DNA of 36,538 nt, from the NCBI GenBank assembly GCA_944323735.1, contig CALUTO010000019.1, positions 1 through 36,538 of the forward strand. Reading direction: 5' to 3'. Both the position numbers and the translations under genes were made by a program. Positions 1-8,612 of this stretch are shown piece after piece. Numbering within the stretch: position 1 is the stretch's first letter; each line of letters starts with the position of its first letter. The DNA comes from Candidatus Gastranaerophilales bacterium. GTDB taxonomy: Bacteria; Cyanobacteriota; Vampirovibrionia; Gastranaerophilales; Gastranaerophilaceae. Under the pieces are notes generated by a model. That model did not search any database. It saw only the letters and a list, made by a program, of their open reading frames with translations, and was not told the origin of the DNA.

Positions 1-289
1 GCTCACCATTTTTATACTTTACCTCCTGCGGGTCATGCCTGCAAGCCGCCTCATTAAGACAGAAAGATGTCATCCTGAAGCGTTGAATGGTGAATGAGTG
101 CAATAATCGCTGATGTTCAGGATCTTAAAAGCAGTGAGAGAATTAAATAATCATTGCGAATAAAAATGCACCTTGATTTAAACAATTTTACCCAAATTGT
201 AAGATGCTGAATATCCACACCTGCCGCACACATCCCCAGCCCTGCGCTTCAGCATGACAAATTTTAGCCTCCGGCGGGTCATCCCCGCC
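1..289. repeat. Direct repeat, left copy
   Basis: This copy matches 617-905 at a constant offset of 616 bases. By hand I count about 11 substitutions and no gaps over 289 positions. The copy begins at the window edge, so it may extend further left. Inside are several short motifs of the type TTCAGCATGACA and its near-inverse GTCATCCTGAA (for example near 69-80 and 248-259). These resemble the dispersed 'CAGCATGACA / TCATCCTGA' intergenic repeats seen in many bacteria. No convincing ORF lies in it. Confidence 0.85.
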
Positions 290-349
290 TGACACACACA
301 TCCCCAGCCCTGCGCTTCAGCATGACAGAAAGATGTCATCCTGAAGAGT

Positions 350-1188: not shown

Positions 1189-2277
1189 ATGGTTAATTTA
1201 GTACAGAGTTTAGAACCTAGATACAATACTGCAGCGTCACATAGAGGCATGCCGGAAACATCTTTTAAGAAAAAAGAAAAAAAGAAAAAAGCGGCAGTCA
1301 AAGAAGAAGACAAAATTTTGCCAAATGATGTATTCAGCAAAATGAAATACAACATTAAAAAGACCAAAGATATTGCACTCACCCATTTTCCAAGAGGTCT
1401 TTACGGAGCACCGGATTATACGTTTTTTGAATATCTGCAAACTGCAAAATTCCCTTATTACGTAGGAGGACCTATTCTGGCTGCTTTATTCTATGCAGGA
1501 GTTAAATACGACAATCTGCTTTCCGGTAATTCCGCTAAAAAAGTTGCAAAACACATGGCACTCGGGGTAGGGCTTTACTATGCAGCTGCAGCTCTTGCTA
1601 AAGGTATTATAAACACTACTGTCCAGCTGACAAGAGGTATGGACTTAAACCATCCTTATCAGAGAGTTATTTCAAAAACTCCGGGATACAGCGGTATCTT
1701 TAAAAAGGGGTTTGAAATTCAAAAAGTATATGGCAGCAATGAATTTACCCGCTGGGATGTCCTGTACAAAAAAGAAGGAAAAACCCTCGCTGAAATTAAT
1801 GAACGATATACAGAACTGGCTAAAAAATTTAAAATCAAAGCCGAAACAGAAGATCCTGACGGAACTCTAAAACACCTTATCAAAAAAACAATTATCATGT
1901 CAAAAGCATGGCAGTATGCTCTGACGGCTCTGTTTGTTCCAATAGGAATCGGTATTGCAAACCAGAAAGCATGGGATAGAGAAAATACACAGGAATTTAA
2001 AGGTCTCATTAGAAACGGTATATTAAATGACCATTTAGATGTTAAATCACGTATAGAAAATGCAAAAACCCTTATAAAAGATTATGCAACTAAGCCATTT
2101 ATCGACAGTATTAAACAGTTCTGGCACGGAAACAGTACTGCTTCGTCGATTGCAGGAAAAACATTTATTTCGGCTGCAGTACTGGGTACTATTACCGCTA
2201 TCGGACTAATCACAACTCAAACTACAGCAAAAAATTACAAAGTGGAAAATACACAAAAATCAGATGGAGTTAAATAA
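1189..2277 (+). CDS. Unknown multi-pass membrane protein
   Basis: I do not recognise this 362-aa protein. Residues 27-60 form a very basic segment (run of Lys), right after a short TSFKK motif at 24-28. Hydrophobic stretches that could cross the membrane lie at about 90-107, 122-142, 241-258 and 324-343, with a polar, helix-rich region between the second and third. There is no classical signal peptide. It is the first gene of a three-gene operon: its stop is 2 bases before the next start, and the next two genes overlap. Its role is therefore probably tied to the 1089-aa membrane protein and the GH13 protein downstream. AAGGGG just before the ATG supports the start. Confidence 0.85.
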   Translation: MVNLVQSLEPRYNTAASHRGMPETSFKKKEKKKKAAVKEEDKILPNDVFSKMKYNIKKTKDIALTHFPRGLYGAPDYTFFEYLQTAKFPYYVGGPILAALFYAGVKYDNLLSGNSAKKVAKHMALGVGLYYAAAALAKGIINTTVQLTRGMDLNHPYQRVISKTPGYSGIFKKGFEIQKVYGSNEFTRWDVLYKKEGKTLAEINERYTELAKKFKIKAETEDPDGTLKHLIKKTIIMSKAWQYALTALFVPIGIGIANQKAWDRENTQEFKGLIRNGILNDHLDVKSRIENAKTLIKDYATKPFIDSIKQFWHGNSTASSIAGKTFISAAVLGTITAIGLITTQTTAKNYKVENTQKSDGVK

Positions 2278-2279
2278 TT

Positions 2280-5200
2280 ATGACCGGCAATCTTTTCACT
2301 AAAATTCAAATACCGGTAAGGCCGCAGATACAAACACACCAAAATAATACATCTGTGCCTGCTCCTTCTTTGTTTAAACAAAATGATACGTTTTCAAAAT
2401 TTGATTATCCTGCAGCTATTCCCCTCAGCAAGCCTAACACTACACCGAAAGGAATTACCCAGGATCCACCGAGAGGTAGACTTGTTAACGAAACATTTTT
2501 GCAATCTATGAAAAGCACTGTAAAAAGCTATGGCGACTATTGCAAGTACTTTTACAATGCAGGTTTTAAAGGTACCGGCACTGACTACAGCGTTGGAAAA
2601 ATTAACGACCTCGCTATCAGGGTCGGCAGTTTGGGGATTGCTGTTACGCTGGCTTCTTCAAAATTTTTCCCCTTTGCAAGAGGCATGGAGTTTGTCGGAC
2701 TCGGTACCTGGTTTGCTGCAATGGCAGCCTGGCCAAAACTTCTTGCTATGCCTATAAAAGCAAAAACCGGCATAGATCCTTCTTTGAAATATGAAGATTC
2801 TCAGGGAAGAAGAAAATCCTTCTTCGAGGACAGGCAGTATCTATGTTTTGATTTATTTAAACATGTTGATAAAAACGGAAACTATAATCCGAATGCACCT
2901 GAATATGAACTCTTCGATCTTATCGGTGACAAACTCGGAATTCCCAGAAATATTCCAAACAGGCGTGAAGCTATCCAGAACAAAGTTGCACAGTACGGAG
3001 TACAATACAATACACTTACGATGTTGACTGCAGGAGTCATGACACCGGTTCTTTCTTCACTCGTTGCTGACCAGCTTCAGATGCCTCTGGGGAAAGCTCT
3101 GGAGGTGGCAAGAGTTAAAAAATCAGGTTTCTCAATAAACAATATCTCTAATAAAATTGATAAGCTGCTTTCTATGGACAAACTTACTCCGGACAAAGCA
3201 ATCGACATGCTTGGGGTAAGCGTAAATTCTAAATTTGCATCAAAACTTGATAAACTGACAACAACGGCTGAAAAAGACAGTGCTATTTATCTTAACCACA
3301 AACAAGAACAAGAGTTGTCAAAACTTTTTGAAAACCGGTATTTCGGTACAGGATTCGGTACTGGAATTATTCAGGAATTGAATACAGAATCCGTTATTGT
3401 CAGAAATTCTGTTCCGATAAACCATGAGCTGGGGGTTGATGTCGGAAATGTCTCAAAAACAATCTCTGAAAAAGCCAAAGAAATAGAAATAAACAGTCTG
3501 AAAGAAAAATTTGCGGCAGTTGAATCAGCTTATAAAAAATTAAATACTCAGCCTGTAGAAAATCCTGAATCTCTCAAAATTTCAGATATGATAAATACCT
3601 TAAAAACAAGCAAAAAGGGACATACTGCAAGTATCAGAGCATTGATTGCAACGGTAAGCGAGTTTGAAAATCTTGGAGTTTCTGAATTCAAAACAGCATT
3701 ATCCGAAGCAGACATAACAAAATTAAAACTTGAACATTTGAATATTGATACAACTTTATCACTGCAGGAAATCTGGCGGGCTCTTGATGATGCAAAAAAA
3801 TGTCTTGAGTACCCGACATATTTCACTCCAATCGGTCAAAAATATGCAACTGCCCAGCTTCAAATTGTTTTTTCTGAAAAATTAAAATCTCTTAATCTTC
3901 CCGACAAAGATATATCATTATTCAACAAAGTTTTTGAAACAGAATTAACAAATTACTTTAATACAACACGCAATACACTAATCAGACCGCAGCAGGCAAA
4001 AAATTTATTCAAAATTGCAGAAATTAATTTGGAGCTGAAAAAAAGAATTGACAGTTACAAAGCGGCCACGATAAAAGACGTAGCTGAATCTATTACGGCA
4101 AGATCCTGGGATAAAATTCCCAAACAGTATTTCAGCGCAATCGGGTTTACTCCGGAAGAAATAGAAAGCCTCGCTACTGTTGAAACAAACAGGGCTTCGG
4201 AAATTCTCTCAAATCGATTGAGCGAACTTGTTAAAGATGAAGCAAAACTCAACAAAGCCGTCACTGAAATGGCAAAACATGCAAATACAGCTATTACAAA
4301 AGAACAAAAAGCACTTCAGACTTTGCTCGGTACGCCTGACAGACCCGGAATACTGGTAAAAACAGAAAACCTGACAAAAAAACTTATTGCGCAGAATTCA
4401 TTTACTGATGAACTCAAGTTAGGTTTTGAAAGATATTTTATTTCGAATATGAAAACAGTAAGACAAAAAGTTGCAAATACTATTGACTCTTTCTGTAGAC
4501 CTATTCAGATTCTTGATATCTTTAAATCGTTGAATGTGACTCTTGAACCTATTATGGAAAATAATGTTGCTGTCGGTGAAAAAATGGTTTCATCAGGAAA
4601 AATACCTTTTATTCTTGAAGATTTTCTCGGCACAACGTCAAAAGAGTTTATGGACAAAATGTCAGTAGATTCTACTAAAAAATACAATGAAATACCAAAC
4701 CCCCGCTACGGTAAATACTATACATTCAATGAGGCATATGATGAAGCAGGTGCTTACAAAAAAGCATTTAATTCGCTGATTGATTACATAAAAGATATTG
4801 CTCTGCAAAAAAATGATATAAGCGATTGGATAACTAAACATGAAGCACAGCCTGAAGGTTTTTCAAAAGGCATAAAGCACAGCAAGCACATGGTCGGTGT
4901 AATGGCTGATACAATTTTTGCCAAATTTTCTAATGAAACAAGAAATGCAATAGAGCAGGGTGCAGAAGGCCTCGCTGATATACTTGAAAATCAGAAAGCT
5001 GAAATGAAAAGATGCTTCCTCGGTGCAGACAGCGTTATCGTTAGACATTCCAACTTCGACGGTTATGAAGCAAATAAATGTTCAGGAAAAGATATCAGCA
5101 GAATCGTTGATGAATTTTTCAATGCTGCCGGTGCTGCAGATGCTGAACAAAAATCAACAAATCTTTTACAGCTAGTGGAAAACAGACGGCTTGAAAATGA

Positions 5201-5549
5201 ATCGTTTAAAAATATTCAAGATGCAAAAAATATAATTTTCGGATACATAAATCACCTGAAAAACGGCGGCGGATTTGATAAACAACCGGCAAAAAATTTC
5301 CTTAACGGTATACTAAACGGAAAATGTTCAAATAAAGATATCGGAGAGATGACCGGAAAAAATACTGTTGATTTTATGGTTCGTGCAGCTCAAAATATCC
5401 GCTCCAGAAATAAGTGGAAGCTGCTTGTATGGTCATTATTTGCAGCTACTGTAGGCATTTCACTGGTAACTATTGCTAATATGGGTCATACAAATTCCTT
5501 CAATCCTGATCACTGGAAAAAAGCTAACAAGAATGGAGATAAAAAATGA
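2280..5549 (+). CDS. Large unknown helical membrane-anchored protein
   Basis: No family is recognised for this 1089-aa protein. The first ~70 residues are polar, Pro/Thr/Gln-rich and probably disordered. Two hydrophobic stretches follow at about 111-130 and 136-160, another at about 245-265, and one clear C-terminal membrane segment at about 1048-1068 with a basic tail. The ~780 residues between are Lys/Glu-rich and look mainly helical or coiled, suggesting a long scaffold-like domain. A degenerate EF-hand-like loop (DKNGN) starts at 197. GGAG lies 11 bases before the ATG, and the stop overlaps the next start by four bases (ATGA at 5546-5549). Membrane anchoring at both ends is inferred from hydrophobicity only. 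Confidence 0.85.
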   Translation: MTGNLFTKIQIPVRPQIQTHQNNTSVPAPSLFKQNDTFSKFDYPAAIPLSKPNTTPKGITQDPPRGRLVNETFLQSMKSTVKSYGDYCKYFYNAGFKGTGTDYSVGKINDLAIRVGSLGIAVTLASSKFFPFARGMEFVGLGTWFAAMAAWPKLLAMPIKAKTGIDPSLKYEDSQGRRKSFFEDRQYLCFDLFKHVDKNGNYNPNAPEYELFDLIGDKLGIPRNIPNRREAIQNKVAQYGVQYNTLTMLTAGVMTPVLSSLVADQLQMPLGKALEVARVKKSGFSINNISNKIDKLLSMDKLTPDKAIDMLGVSVNSKFASKLDKLTTTAEKDSAIYLNHKQEQELSKLFENRYFGTGFGTGIIQELNTESVIVRNSVPINHELGVDVGNVSKTISEKAKEIEINSLKEKFAAVESAYKKLNTQPVENPESLKISDMINTLKTSKKGHTASIRALIATVSEFENLGVSEFKTALSEADITKLKLEHLNIDTTLSLQEIWRALDDAKKCLEYPTYFTPIGQKYATAQLQIVFSEKLKSLNLPDKDISLFNKVFETELTNYFNTTRNTLIRPQQAKNLFKIAEINLELKKRIDSYKAATIKDVAESITARSWDKIPKQYFSAIGFTPEEIESLATVETNRASEILSNRLSELVKDEAKLNKAVTEMAKHANTAITKEQKALQTLLGTPDRPGILVKTENLTKKLIAQNSFTDELKLGFERYFISNMKTVRQKVANTIDSFCRPIQILDIFKSLNVTLEPIMENNVAVGEKMVSSGKIPFILEDFLGTTSKEFMDKMSVDSTKKYNEIPNPRYGKYYTFNEAYDEAGAYKKAFNSLIDYIKDIALQKNDISDWITKHEAQPEGFSKGIKHSKHMVGVMADTIFAKFSNETRNAIEQGAEGLADILENQKAEMKRCFLGADSVIVRHSNFDGYEANKCSGKDISRIVDEFFNAAGAADAEQKSTNLLQLVENRRLENESFKNIQDAKNIIFGYINHLKNGGGFDKQPAKNFLNGILNGKCSNKDIGEMTGKNTVDFMVRAAQNIRSRNKWKLLVWSLFAATVGISLVTIANMGHTNSFNPDHWKKANKNGDKK

Positions 5550-7642
5550 AGATTAATAACACAATAAATAATCAATATACACAAAAAACTTCATTTAAAG
5601 CTTCATTGCTTGATATAATGAATAACAAATATCCTAAAATAGCAGCACAGCCTGTTTCTTCTACGAACACAATGCTGCCCGGAGCATATGCGCCGGTATC
5701 AACTCCAGTGGCAACAAATTATAATAAAACCGGAAATCTTTTCACGTTGATGATGGGAAGAATGACGGCTTCTGCCTCAACTGCAGCTGCACCGGTACAA
5801 ACTACAGCTGTAGATAACAATCTCAAAACACCAAAGCTGGAAGGATACAAAAATAATCTCCGCTCAATGTTTCAGAACAATCAGGCCGTCATTTATGCAA
5901 TGGTTCCGAGAACATTTAATGCAAAAGACACTGACGGAAACGGACTTATTGAAGGCAATGAAGAAAGCGGTACGTTTATTAATATGATAGAACGGCTGGA
6001 TGAACTTAAAAGCTATGGAGTAAATACTCTTCACTGGCTGCCCATAAATCCTCCCGGTGTTTTTTCGGCAAAAGGTGATTCCGGTTCTGTTTATGCACCG
6101 GCTGATTATCTTTCTATAGACCCGCTTCTTGATGATCCGAAAAATCAGAAAAATGTTTACGAAGAAGCCAAAGAAGCTATAAATGAATGTCACAAACGCG
6201 GCATTAGAGTTATGGTGGATCTTCCGAGCTGTATGTCCTCTGATTTGTATGCGGAGAGATTTAATGATTTAAGCGCAGTTGACGCAGACGGAAAACCCAA
6301 AACACCGGAAGGCTGGGAAGATATCAAAATGTTCAAAGTCTGGGAAGATGCAGATAAAAAAATATTGAATCCTGCTCTTGTTGATTATCACAAAAAATTT
6401 GTCGATATGTGTATAGACTTAGGAATTGACGGGATAAGAGCCGATGTATCAAGAGCAAAATCACCGGAATTCTGGGATATAATAATTGCTTACGCAAGAA
6501 GCAAAGATCCTGAATTTGCAATGCTTGCAGAAACATACACTTATGAAGATGCGTCTCCTATGAAAAACATGCCGGCTGACAGACCTGAAGAAGCATTGAA
6601 AGCAGGTTTTGATTCTTATTACGGGCAATATCATATATTTCCTATATGGAAGGCCTCAGATTTCCATAAATTTGTTACAGAAAACCTTGAAATGACTCAT
6701 AAATCAGGTTTTGACAAAGGAAAATCAATAATCGGTTCATTCGCTACACACGATGACAAAAGTGCAATGTCAAACGGAGGTGCTGAATATTGTATGCTGA
6801 CAAACATTGCACAGGCCACTCTGCCTATGCTTAATCCGTACATAGTTTCGGGGTTTGAATCAGGTGACAGATATATTTACGATTACGCAAACAAAATGCT
6901 GGATGTCAGCTTTAATGATTTGATGAAAAAACCGAGATACAACAAAGTAATCAATGCAATTATGGCAGAACAAAATTCACCTAAATTTATTGAACTGGAA
7001 AAGAAATTGGAAGTAAATAAAGATGAAGTTATACCCTATACGAAAATTGAAGCCTTAATGAAAAGCCCGAAAGCAAATATGAAACTCAAGGATTTGCAAA
7101 AAGATGAGGAATTCGGTGAGGTAATAGACTTTTTAAGCACATTTAAACTGACAAAAGACAGTATTATTCATTATGCGCATAACGAACAGATTGACATCTT
7201 TAACCGTTCAAGAAAGCCAGGCGGACACAATCCTGAAATAGGAAAACACTTCGGAAAATTAATGAATGAATTCAGAAAACAGTACTACGATGTTGTCGGG
7301 GCTAAAGGTTCTTCATACATGCCATTAAAAGTAAAGGGCGATGACAGAGATGATGTAATAGCTTATGCAAGACACAATCACGGAAAAACTCTTGTGGTTG
7401 TTATGAATAAAAATGTACATTCAGGTCATAGAGTAAAAGTCATTGTACCCGGACTTAAAGCTTCACAGATATTGACAGATCTTTCTCCTGAATACGGACA
7501 AAAAAGTGTATGGAAAGCTGAAAATGGAGCAATAGATATGGAACTCGGAATGGCAAGAGGTCACATTTTTGAAATAGATGACCCGAATATTGAACAGCTT
7601 GTTCTAGAATCCGGCGGAAAAGTCTACAAACAAAATATGTAA
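5546..7642 (+). CDS. GH13 alpha-amylase-family protein
   Basis: This 698-aa protein has a low-complexity N-terminus (about 1-100, with a TSFKA motif at 15-19), then a (beta/alpha)8 alpha-amylase-family barrel and a C-terminal beta domain (about 590-690). Visible GH13 hallmarks are the Ca-type loop DTDGNG (128-133), region I ending VMVDLP (222-227) without the usual Asn-His, region II GIRAD with nucleophile D300, region III AET with acid/base E329, and region IV THDD with D403. All three catalytic acids are kept, so glycoside hydrolysis or transglycosylation on alpha-glucans is likely; the exact substrate is not deducible. There is no signal peptide. It is coupled to the preceding membrane protein by a 4-base overlap, so it may act at the membrane or on storage glucan. 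Confidence 0.9.
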   Translation: MKINNTINNQYTQKTSFKASLLDIMNNKYPKIAAQPVSSTNTMLPGAYAPVSTPVATNYNKTGNLFTLMMGRMTASASTAAAPVQTTAVDNNLKTPKLEGYKNNLRSMFQNNQAVIYAMVPRTFNAKDTDGNGLIEGNEESGTFINMIERLDELKSYGVNTLHWLPINPPGVFSAKGDSGSVYAPADYLSIDPLLDDPKNQKNVYEEAKEAINECHKRGIRVMVDLPSCMSSDLYAERFNDLSAVDADGKPKTPEGWEDIKMFKVWEDADKKILNPALVDYHKKFVDMCIDLGIDGIRADVSRAKSPEFWDIIIAYARSKDPEFAMLAETYTYEDASPMKNMPADRPEEALKAGFDSYYGQYHIFPIWKASDFHKFVTENLEMTHKSGFDKGKSIIGSFATHDDKSAMSNGGAEYCMLTNIAQATLPMLNPYIVSGFESGDRYIYDYANKMLDVSFNDLMKKPRYNKVINAIMAEQNSPKFIELEKKLEVNKDEVIPYTKIEALMKSPKANMKLKDLQKDEEFGEVIDFLSTFKLTKDSIIHYAHNEQIDIFNRSRKPGGHNPEIGKHFGKLMNEFRKQYYDVVGAKGSSYMPLKVKGDDRDDVIAYARHNHGKTLVVVMNKNVHSGHRVKVIVPGLKASQILTDLSPEYGQKSVWKAENGAIDMELGMARGHIFEIDDPNIEQLVLESGGKVYKQNM

Positions 7643-7662: not shown

Positions 7663-8028
7663 CTAGTATGCGGCAAGTGTTTTTGAAAAACACTTGCCGC
7701 TCATTATGCAATAATCTCCGACTCTGGATGCCTTTTTTGTTCCCGGATTAATAATCAAAACAAAAGGAACGGACTCTATATTCCATTTTTCTATCAGTTT
7801 TGAAGAAAGTCCCGAGTCTGCATTTTGGCGTACAAAATTAAATTTCGATGAATATTTTTTCTGTGCCTTACTATAAATATCATCAAAATATTTACATGCT
7901 GAACACCCGTTCTGATACATATAGAAAACAAAAGGTTTTTGTTTATTCATTGCCTCATCAAAAGACAAAGATATTGCGGGCGAAACAAAAACGAAGAAAA
8001 AAAATAAAACAAGAGAATATTTCATCAT
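7663..8028 (-). CDS. Secreted thioredoxin-like protein
   Basis: This 121-aa protein has an N-terminal hydrophobic signal sequence (about 4-20, cleavage perhaps after the SPAIS stretch) and a short thioredoxin fold. The redox pair is C42-S-A-C45, and the cis-proline loop is S87-P88 (VPFVLI). Two more cysteines (C107, C113) near the end could form a second disulfide. It probably acts outside the cytoplasmic membrane in disulfide exchange, or as a thioredoxin-like SoxW/DsbE-type protein; the exact partner is unknown. The start overlaps the stop of the upstream gene by one base (TAATG), so translation is coupled; a second ATG follows directly. Its last codons coincide with the 7670-7700 palindrome. 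Confidence 0.85.
   Translation of the reverse strand: MMKYSLVLFFFFVFVSPAISLSFDEAMNKQKPFVFYMYQNGCSACKYFDDIYSKAQKKYSSKFNFVRQNADSGLSSKLIEKWNIESVPFVLIINPGTKKASRVGDYCIMSGKCFSKTLAAY
7670..7700. repeat. Perfect 31-bp palindrome
   Basis: GCGGCAAGTGTTTTT and its exact reverse complement are separated by one base. It lies 27 bases after the stop of the GH13 gene and inside the last codons of the minus-strand thioredoxin-like gene. It can form a strong hairpin in both convergent transcripts. There is no T-run after it on either strand, so a terminator or 3'-end stabiliser role is plausible but not shown. Confidence 0.8.
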
Positions 8029-8612
8029 TATAACAGTGTTTCACCGTTTTTTTTGACATACAGTCCGAGACCTATGGTTTTGTATTTGCTCAGCTCGTTT
8101 TTCAGATTGTAATTTTCTTTATTCAACTCATTCATTTTGTACCTTAGAGTTTCATTTTCAGTTTTACATCTGACAAGCTCAACAACAACCTCATCCATAC
8201 CGTCCAATTTTTCATCAATCATTTTTGAAAGTTTTGAAGCAATGTTATCCTCTAAAGATTCCAGTGTTGAAATCATTTTTTGAACAGCAGTGGAAGCAGG
8301 CTGCTTAACCGGTGCAATGTTTTCCATGGGTTTGGCAACTGTTCTGTCCTGTAATTTTTGTGCATTTTCGTGCAATGCTTTTACCTTTCTGAGAATTTCT
8401 ACATCATCTCTTGAAAAATAAGTTCTGCCATGAGCATCTTTTTTGGGCATTAATGAAACTTTAGCGCATAATTTAGCAATTCCTTTATTGTCCATGTTAA
8501 GAAGATTTCTGACTGTTTCCACAGAGAAATTTTGTATTTTATTGTCAAAATCCACAAACTGATTTATTTGTTGTCTTCTTTGCGGTTGTCGACCGTTTAA
8601 CACAGTAGCCAA
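8028..8612 (-). CDS. MerR-like DNA-binding protein with coiled coil
   Basis: Residues about 30-80 resemble a MerR-type winged helix: a helix-turn-helix (SVETVRNLL...GIAKLC), then a 'wing' containing GRTYFSRDDVEILRKV. The central part (about 85-115) is Pro/Ala-rich linker, and about 115-180 is a predicted coiled coil with a heptad-like run of Leu/Glu/Asn. That layout (DNA-binding head, long coil) is seen in chromosome-organising or regulatory proteins, but a role cannot be assigned. The start is TTG at 8612-8610, preceded by GAGGAG at good spacing; no ATG fits. It is the first gene of a two-gene operon with the thioredoxin-like protein, and its own promoter is proposed just upstream. Confidence 0.8.
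   Translation of the reverse strand: MATVLNGRQPQRRQQINQFVDFDNKIQNFSVETVRNLLNMDNKGIAKLCAKVSLMPKKDAHGRTYFSRDDVEILRKVKALHENAQKLQDRTVAKPMENIAPVKQPASTAVQKMISTLESLEDNIASKLSKMIDEKLDGMDEVVVELVRCKTENETLRYKMNELNKENYNLKNELSKYKTIGLGLYVKKNGETLL

Follow-up and report, generated by a model that had tools for sequence, protein, structure and literature searches.

Two homologous membrane-anchored proteins and a GH13-type enzyme encoded by a conserved operon of the Gastranaerophilales

We describe an operon of three adjacent genes, O1, O2, and O3, that is kept by almost all members of the Gastranaerophilales and, in the material searched, is confined to this order. O1 and O2 encode related proteins of no recognised family, each with a probable C-terminal membrane anchor, and O3 encodes a GH13-type enzyme with an intact catalytic triad. 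Our preferred reading, which we put at a little below even odds (about 0.45), is that the three products form a membrane-anchored complex on the cytoplasmic side that carries out alpha-glucan transglycosylation and is auxiliary to ordinary glycogen synthesis. A first-pass annotation of this DNA had proposed a membrane-tethered alpha-glucan-processing complex, and this is still the best reading, but it was incomplete, having overlooked the homology between O1 and O2, a tail motif common to O2 and O3, and the membership of a fourth gene, O4.

Organization of the operon

The window, by which we mean the whole 36,538-nucleotide stretch analysed, makes up a single contig of genome G000 (2.06 Mb), the relatives of which are named Gastranaerophilales. 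Its operon consists of three genes:

1189..2277, + strand: O1, 362 aa, ATG start; membrane-anchored, no recognised family
2280..5549, + strand: O2, 1089 aa, ATG start; O1-like domain, helical insert of ~780 residues, C-terminal anchor
5546..7642, + strand: O3, 698 aa, ATG start; GH13-type, without signal-like N-terminus or anchor

O1 and O2 are separated by 2 bases and O2 overlaps O3 by 4, so that the spacing first described matches the open reading frame coordinates; the caller takes the first start codon, and some overlaps are overstated and some N-termini shifted. Predicted promoters and terminators are no more frequent than in shuffled sequences, and it is thus the spacing and the conservation of the genes that argue for co-transcription. 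Upstream of the operon lies a 300-base direct repeat (window 1-300 and 617-916, 95% identical) accompanied by further short repeats, and it is followed by convergent genes (7663-8612), one for a thioredoxin-like product and one for a MerR-like product that contains a coiled coil.

Conservation and distribution

We compared the window's genome with 58 relatives; of these 59 genomes, 47 have a match to O1, 48 to O2, and 55 to O3 or one of its paralogues. All three genes are present at 45 of 49 operon loci (48 from the relatives plus the window), and the remaining four have contig ends within or adjoining the operon. A scan of named genomes gave 370 stretches encoding an O3 relative, and in the best 80 of these 370 the three genes occur together at 73 loci, the other seven being cut by contig ends. 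The order O1-O2-O3 is found in 72 of the 73 complete loci, where the gaps have medians of 0 and -1 bases; the single exception is O3-O1-O2 in Candidatus Caenarcanum. The co-occurrence is far above chance, with the qualification that related species among the counted genomes are not independent samples, and it bears out the conserved neighbourhood across Gastranaerophilales that had been set as a check on the first reading. In a phylum-wide sample of 156 genomes O1 is present in 67/67 members of the family to which the window belongs and in 0/89 others; within the order it is present in most sampled families and absent from one, f2. The genes upstream and downstream differ between clades and yield no pathway clue. 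We found no description of the operon in the literature covered, subscription papers being largely outside that coverage.

O1 and O2 are homologous and membrane-anchored

The features of the two proteins are as follows:

1303..1986, + strand: O1 domain homologous to the O2 N-terminal part (residues 39-266; hhalign)
2469..3101, + strand: O2 domain homologous to O1 (residues 64-274; hhalign)
2161..2217, + strand: O1 C-terminal hydrophobic segment, probable anchor (residues 325-343; Kyte-Doolittle 1.73)
5421..5477, + strand: O2 C-terminal hydrophobic segment, probable anchor (residues 1048-1066; Kyte-Doolittle 2.14)
3069..5420, + strand: O2 helical insert (residues 264-1047, 784 residues; mostly helical in the AF2 model)

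By profile comparison O1 is homologous to the start of O2, a relationship new to this analysis: hhalign with two separate alignments (A2/A3; 74 O1 and 73 O2 sequences as input) gives a probability of 94.9 and an E-value of 4.3e-8 over 195 columns. O2 can thus be viewed as an O1-type protein with some 780 helical residues inserted. The description of such a helical stretch between the hydrophobic segments of O2 holds up well in the AF2 model, which has a mean pLDDT of 84.2 (77.9 for O1), with low-confidence N-terminal tails. A member of the same family may exist elsewhere, as a 631-aa protein on another contig of G039 (L090:1763-3658) matches the O1 and O2 profiles about equally and is a possible third representative.

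Neither protein could be assigned to a recognised family, as had been noted at first: O1 is without a Pfam match at E<=1 and O2 has matches below cut-offs only. Pfam scans of 74 O1 orthologues gave only weak single matches, none taken as real, and among 10 further O2 sequences, of several dozen, the best was DUF445 (18.5 bits, cut-off 33.8). PDB sequence searches with the O1 and O2 profiles returned nothing significant, PDB structure searches with the two models gave no match at E<=0.001, and neither protein matches the PADLOC anti-phage models. In the fold search the best Z-scores (5.7 and 7.6) are within noise for helical proteins, and vinculin-like and rhodopsin-like rows were rejected on the same grounds, as within noise for helical bundles.

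The membrane segments first ascribed to O1 and O2 are upheld in part. The C-terminal one exceeds the usual Kyte-Doolittle membrane threshold of 1.6 in 64/74 O1 and 53/77 O2 orthologues, and in the window it is the only segment of either protein to do so, the N-terminal helices there being marginal (1.02-1.56). A charge bias toward the N-terminal side is seen in 5/8 hydrophobic helices of the two proteins, a pattern that fits no simple alternating topology, and a positive-inside assignment was dropped because of this inconsistency.

The sidedness of the complex bears on an alternative that we consider unlikely, namely that it works in or across the envelope, with the O2 insert in the periplasm and the module making or exporting a surface alpha-glucan that O3 and O4 produce inside. 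An N-in orientation with three crossings would place the O2 insert outside, and many genomes have UppP-like and KdsC-like genes (named from sequence by eye) beside the operon. In M. tuberculosis, the glucan made by GlgE is reported to be exported by an unknown route (PMC11046441). Against this, O3 is without a hydrophobic segment, and the UppP/KdsC neighbourhood is clade-specific, with flagellar-type genes (also named by eye) in its place in the window's clade. The residues just before the last O2 anchor are positively charged, which speaks against an external insert, although those after it are charged likewise.

A tail motif common to O2 and O3

The N-terminal tails of O2 and O3 in the window contain an identical hexamer:

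2283..2300, + strand: O2 N-terminal tail motif TGNLFT (residues 2-7)
5729..5746, + strand: second TGNLFT, in the O3 tail before the barrel (residues 62-67)

The family form of this hydrophobic motif is TNLIQxYI; O2 typically starts with it and continues into a low-complexity linker, and similar motifs lie in the disordered O3 tail. The pattern used for counting was composed after the sequences had been seen and does not match the O2 of the window itself; it occurs in 29/73 O2 tails (shuffled mean 0.2, maximum 2) and 59/73 O3 tails (mean 3.0, maximum 9), and in 2/73 O1 tails (mean 1.6, maximum 7) it is not above chance. In a held-out set of 14 genomes from one family only (20 newly fetched, less 6 already seen) the motif is present in 13/14 O2, 13/14 O3, and 0/14 O1 tails. 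Gene-specific covariation between O2 and O3 is not evident: mean tail similarity is 23.4 for own pairs, only marginally above the 22.2 for other-locus pairs, against 20.2 for shuffled tails. We interpret the motif as a docking element that the two proteins have in common: because the same motif is carried on flexible linkers in both proteins, both probably dock on a common site.

There is also an N-terminal leader, F-x-[G/A/S/K], which is carried by 52/73 O1 and 41/73 O3 proteins, more than in shuffled sequences. Short Asn/Ser-rich leaders ending SFK[G/A]-like, for which the overall N-terminal excess among 403 sampled proteins is weak, are seen on many O1, O3, and O4 proteins and also start unrelated ones, including CheR-like proteins, AAA ATPases, a DSHCT-type helicase, and unknowns (L230:9821-14205, L231:2753-4985, L227:9546-11948, and L234:10542-10850).

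The O2 and O3 tails resemble the encapsulation peptides of bacterial microcompartments (BMC), described as short helical motifs on disordered linkers (PMC12339742). O1 and O2 might accordingly build an internal structure or membrane domain for which O3 is one cargo of several and the motif a general docking tag. This is a minority reading, to which we give about the same weight as to an envelope function. The short hydrophobic motif common to O2 and O3 and the occurrence of similar leaders on unrelated proteins are both in keeping with it, but BMC shell proteins (PF00936) are absent from 59/59 genomes, a search in which E. coli and Synechococcus controls were positive.

O3 is a GH13-type protein related to transglycosylases and amylases

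The predicted catalytic features of O3 are:

6218..6232, + strand: region I, DLPSC replacing DxxxNH (residues 225-229)
6443..6445, + strand: predicted nucleophile D300, invariant in alignment A1
6530..6532, + strand: predicted acid/base E329, invariant in alignment A1
6752..6754, + strand: predicted transition-state stabiliser D403, invariant in alignment A1

O3 passes the GH13 catalytic-domain model PF00128 weakly (26.7 bits, gathering cut-off 22). The first reading had been staked on the barrel not belonging to a well-characterised subfamily, and it lies outside any curated GH13 equivalog, with no NCBIfam model near its cut-off. The three acidic residues and the changed region I are as first described: alignment A1, of 25 sequences, shows no variation at D225, P227, C229, D300, E329, H402, and D403, and the triad is at least 95% conserved in 46 orthologues. 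Region I does not have the DxxxNH form expected of GH13, but GlgE and the Thermotoga maltosyltransferase depart from it likewise, and this is thus not disqualifying. Ahead of the barrel are ~100 mostly disordered residues.

The solved structures closest to O3 are those of the Thermotoga maltosyltransferase, GlgE, and two alpha-amylases. The region I Asn-His is absent from the maltosyltransferase and GlgE in our alignments and kept in both amylases, and its absence from O3 hints at transfer rather than hydrolysis. The top-scoring profile match, 4gkl, is annotated as an alpha-amylase and keeps the Asn-His, so that hydrolysis is a possible activity as well.

The Thermotoga maritima maltosyltransferase (PDB 1gju) is the best single-sequence match (E 1.4e-15) and has in common with O3 the opening of the barrel and a region I without Asn-His. 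Their alignment (E 2.1e-23) is broken into three stretches, two of which are weak, and a long part of 1gju between these stretches is unmatched; O3 also differs in having membrane-anchored operon partners. GlgE (e.g. PDB 3zss) likewise has a GH13 barrel (profile E 1.1e-15) and a region I without Asn-His, and Lys-Pro and Phe-Trp follow the nucleophile at similar positions in both; the main alignment covers profile positions 123-313 only and is limited to the barrel. The residue after the nucleophile is Asn in GlgE (RVDN), where it has a role in donor binding, but Val in O3 (RADV). GlgE has domains preceding its barrel, whereas O3 has a disordered tail, and O1 and O2 as operon partners. By these sequence comparisons O3 resembles both transferases but is not GlgE (GH13_3), and we have not filed it as such because the post-nucleophile residue and the pre-barrel part differ.

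A paralogue of O3 is encoded elsewhere in the same genomes (e.g. L104:9123-10664), 44% identical over the barrel and with the same triad and a DLPxC region I. It has a signal-like N-terminus in 9/9 fetched sequences and is without the long tail of O3, and no constant partner gene was found near it in the 9 loci. No hydrophobic segment above 1.6 is present in any of 80 O3 orthologues, in agreement with the first description of O3 as lacking an obvious signal peptide, and the 9/9 paralogues make this a real difference; the operon copy has presumably lost export or never had it.

O3 could instead be a plain enzyme of maltodextrin breakdown whose gene shares a transcript with those of two membrane proteins of unrelated function. 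This would suit its full triad and the alpha-amylases among its best profile matches, but is improbable given that the trio is conserved across the order while its flanks change and that O2 and O3 have a tail motif in common.

O4, a second GH13-type protein of the module

O4 is a protein of 1257-1449 aa (full-length set) with an alpha-amylase domain interrupted by inserts and a catalytic triad conserved in 13/13 full-length sequences. In 11 of the 46 genomes with O4 (G005, G024, G026, G029, G039, G041, G046, G049, G055, G056, and G057) its gene comes immediately after O3 in the same orientation; the window's genome has it on a different contig (C4). Of the 59 genomes, 46 have both O1-O3 and O4, ten have neither, and three lack only O4, two of the latter being 75% and 63% complete. 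All ten genomes without O1-O3 are thus also without O4, and the association has a Fisher p of 5e-9, ignoring phylogeny and with presence scored by reading matches. O4 was scored absent in G044 (E 2.7e-8), G047 (6.2e-10), G052 (4.3e-6), and G054 (2.0e-11) because the matches fall in other GH13-like frames. By adjacency and shared absence, O4 belongs to the O1-O3 module. At one locus (L149:15922-18273) a further GH13 gene follows O4; its product has an amylase domain, an amylase C-terminal domain, and a weak match to CBM48, a branching-enzyme-like composition.

Relationship to glycogen metabolism

Glycogen storage or use in the order is noted in two reports (PMC5877343; PMC4040986). A GlgA-type GT5 is present in 58/59 genomes, including complete ones without the operon, and phosphorylase-like matches are found in 57, GH57 in 59, and GH77 in 58; CBM48 is present in only 19/59 genomes, G000 not among them. 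Since complete genomes without the operon have GlgA, basic glycogen synthesis does not require the module, and from gene content the operon appears to supplement glycogen metabolism rather than form its core. Both O3 and O4 match the PADLOC GlgB model weakly (19.7 and 15.7 bits), and the idea that O3 is a missing branching enzyme was set aside, as GH57, a possible branching enzyme, and GH77 occur in operon-less genomes too. Many relatives have long GT5-like frames (~650-1100 aa) besides a normal GlgA (G000:C2:119875-120903).

A model for the complex and its implications

In the membrane-anchored transglycosylation complex that we favour, O1 and O2 would act as homologous scaffold proteins, with O2 presenting a long helical platform beside the membrane. 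O3 would be a retaining GH13 enzyme that acts on alpha-glucan in the cytoplasm and is more likely to be a transglycosylase (a maltosyl- or oligoglucosyl-transferase) than a plain amylase. The common site on which the O2 and O3 motifs probably dock could be on O1/O2 or on a shared partner, and this docking would hold O3 at the membrane. O4 would act in the same pathway, and the module would be auxiliary to GlgC, GlgA, GH57, and GH77, perhaps in membrane-proximal priming, remodelling, or mobilisation of alpha-glucan. A more speculative extension, which we regard as doubtful, is an order-specific, membrane-attached glucan assembly site in the form of a shell-free body, where a duplicated O1/O2 scaffold recruits two divergent GH13 transglycosylases, O4 and, through its docking peptide, O3.

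The glycogen enzymes of bacteria are generally regarded as soluble. A conserved system in which new scaffold families hold GH13 enzymes at the membrane would show that alpha-glucan metabolism is spatially organised in this order of widespread, mostly uncultured, non-photosynthetic gut cyanobacteria, and O1 and O2, as families of unknown function, gain a testable role.
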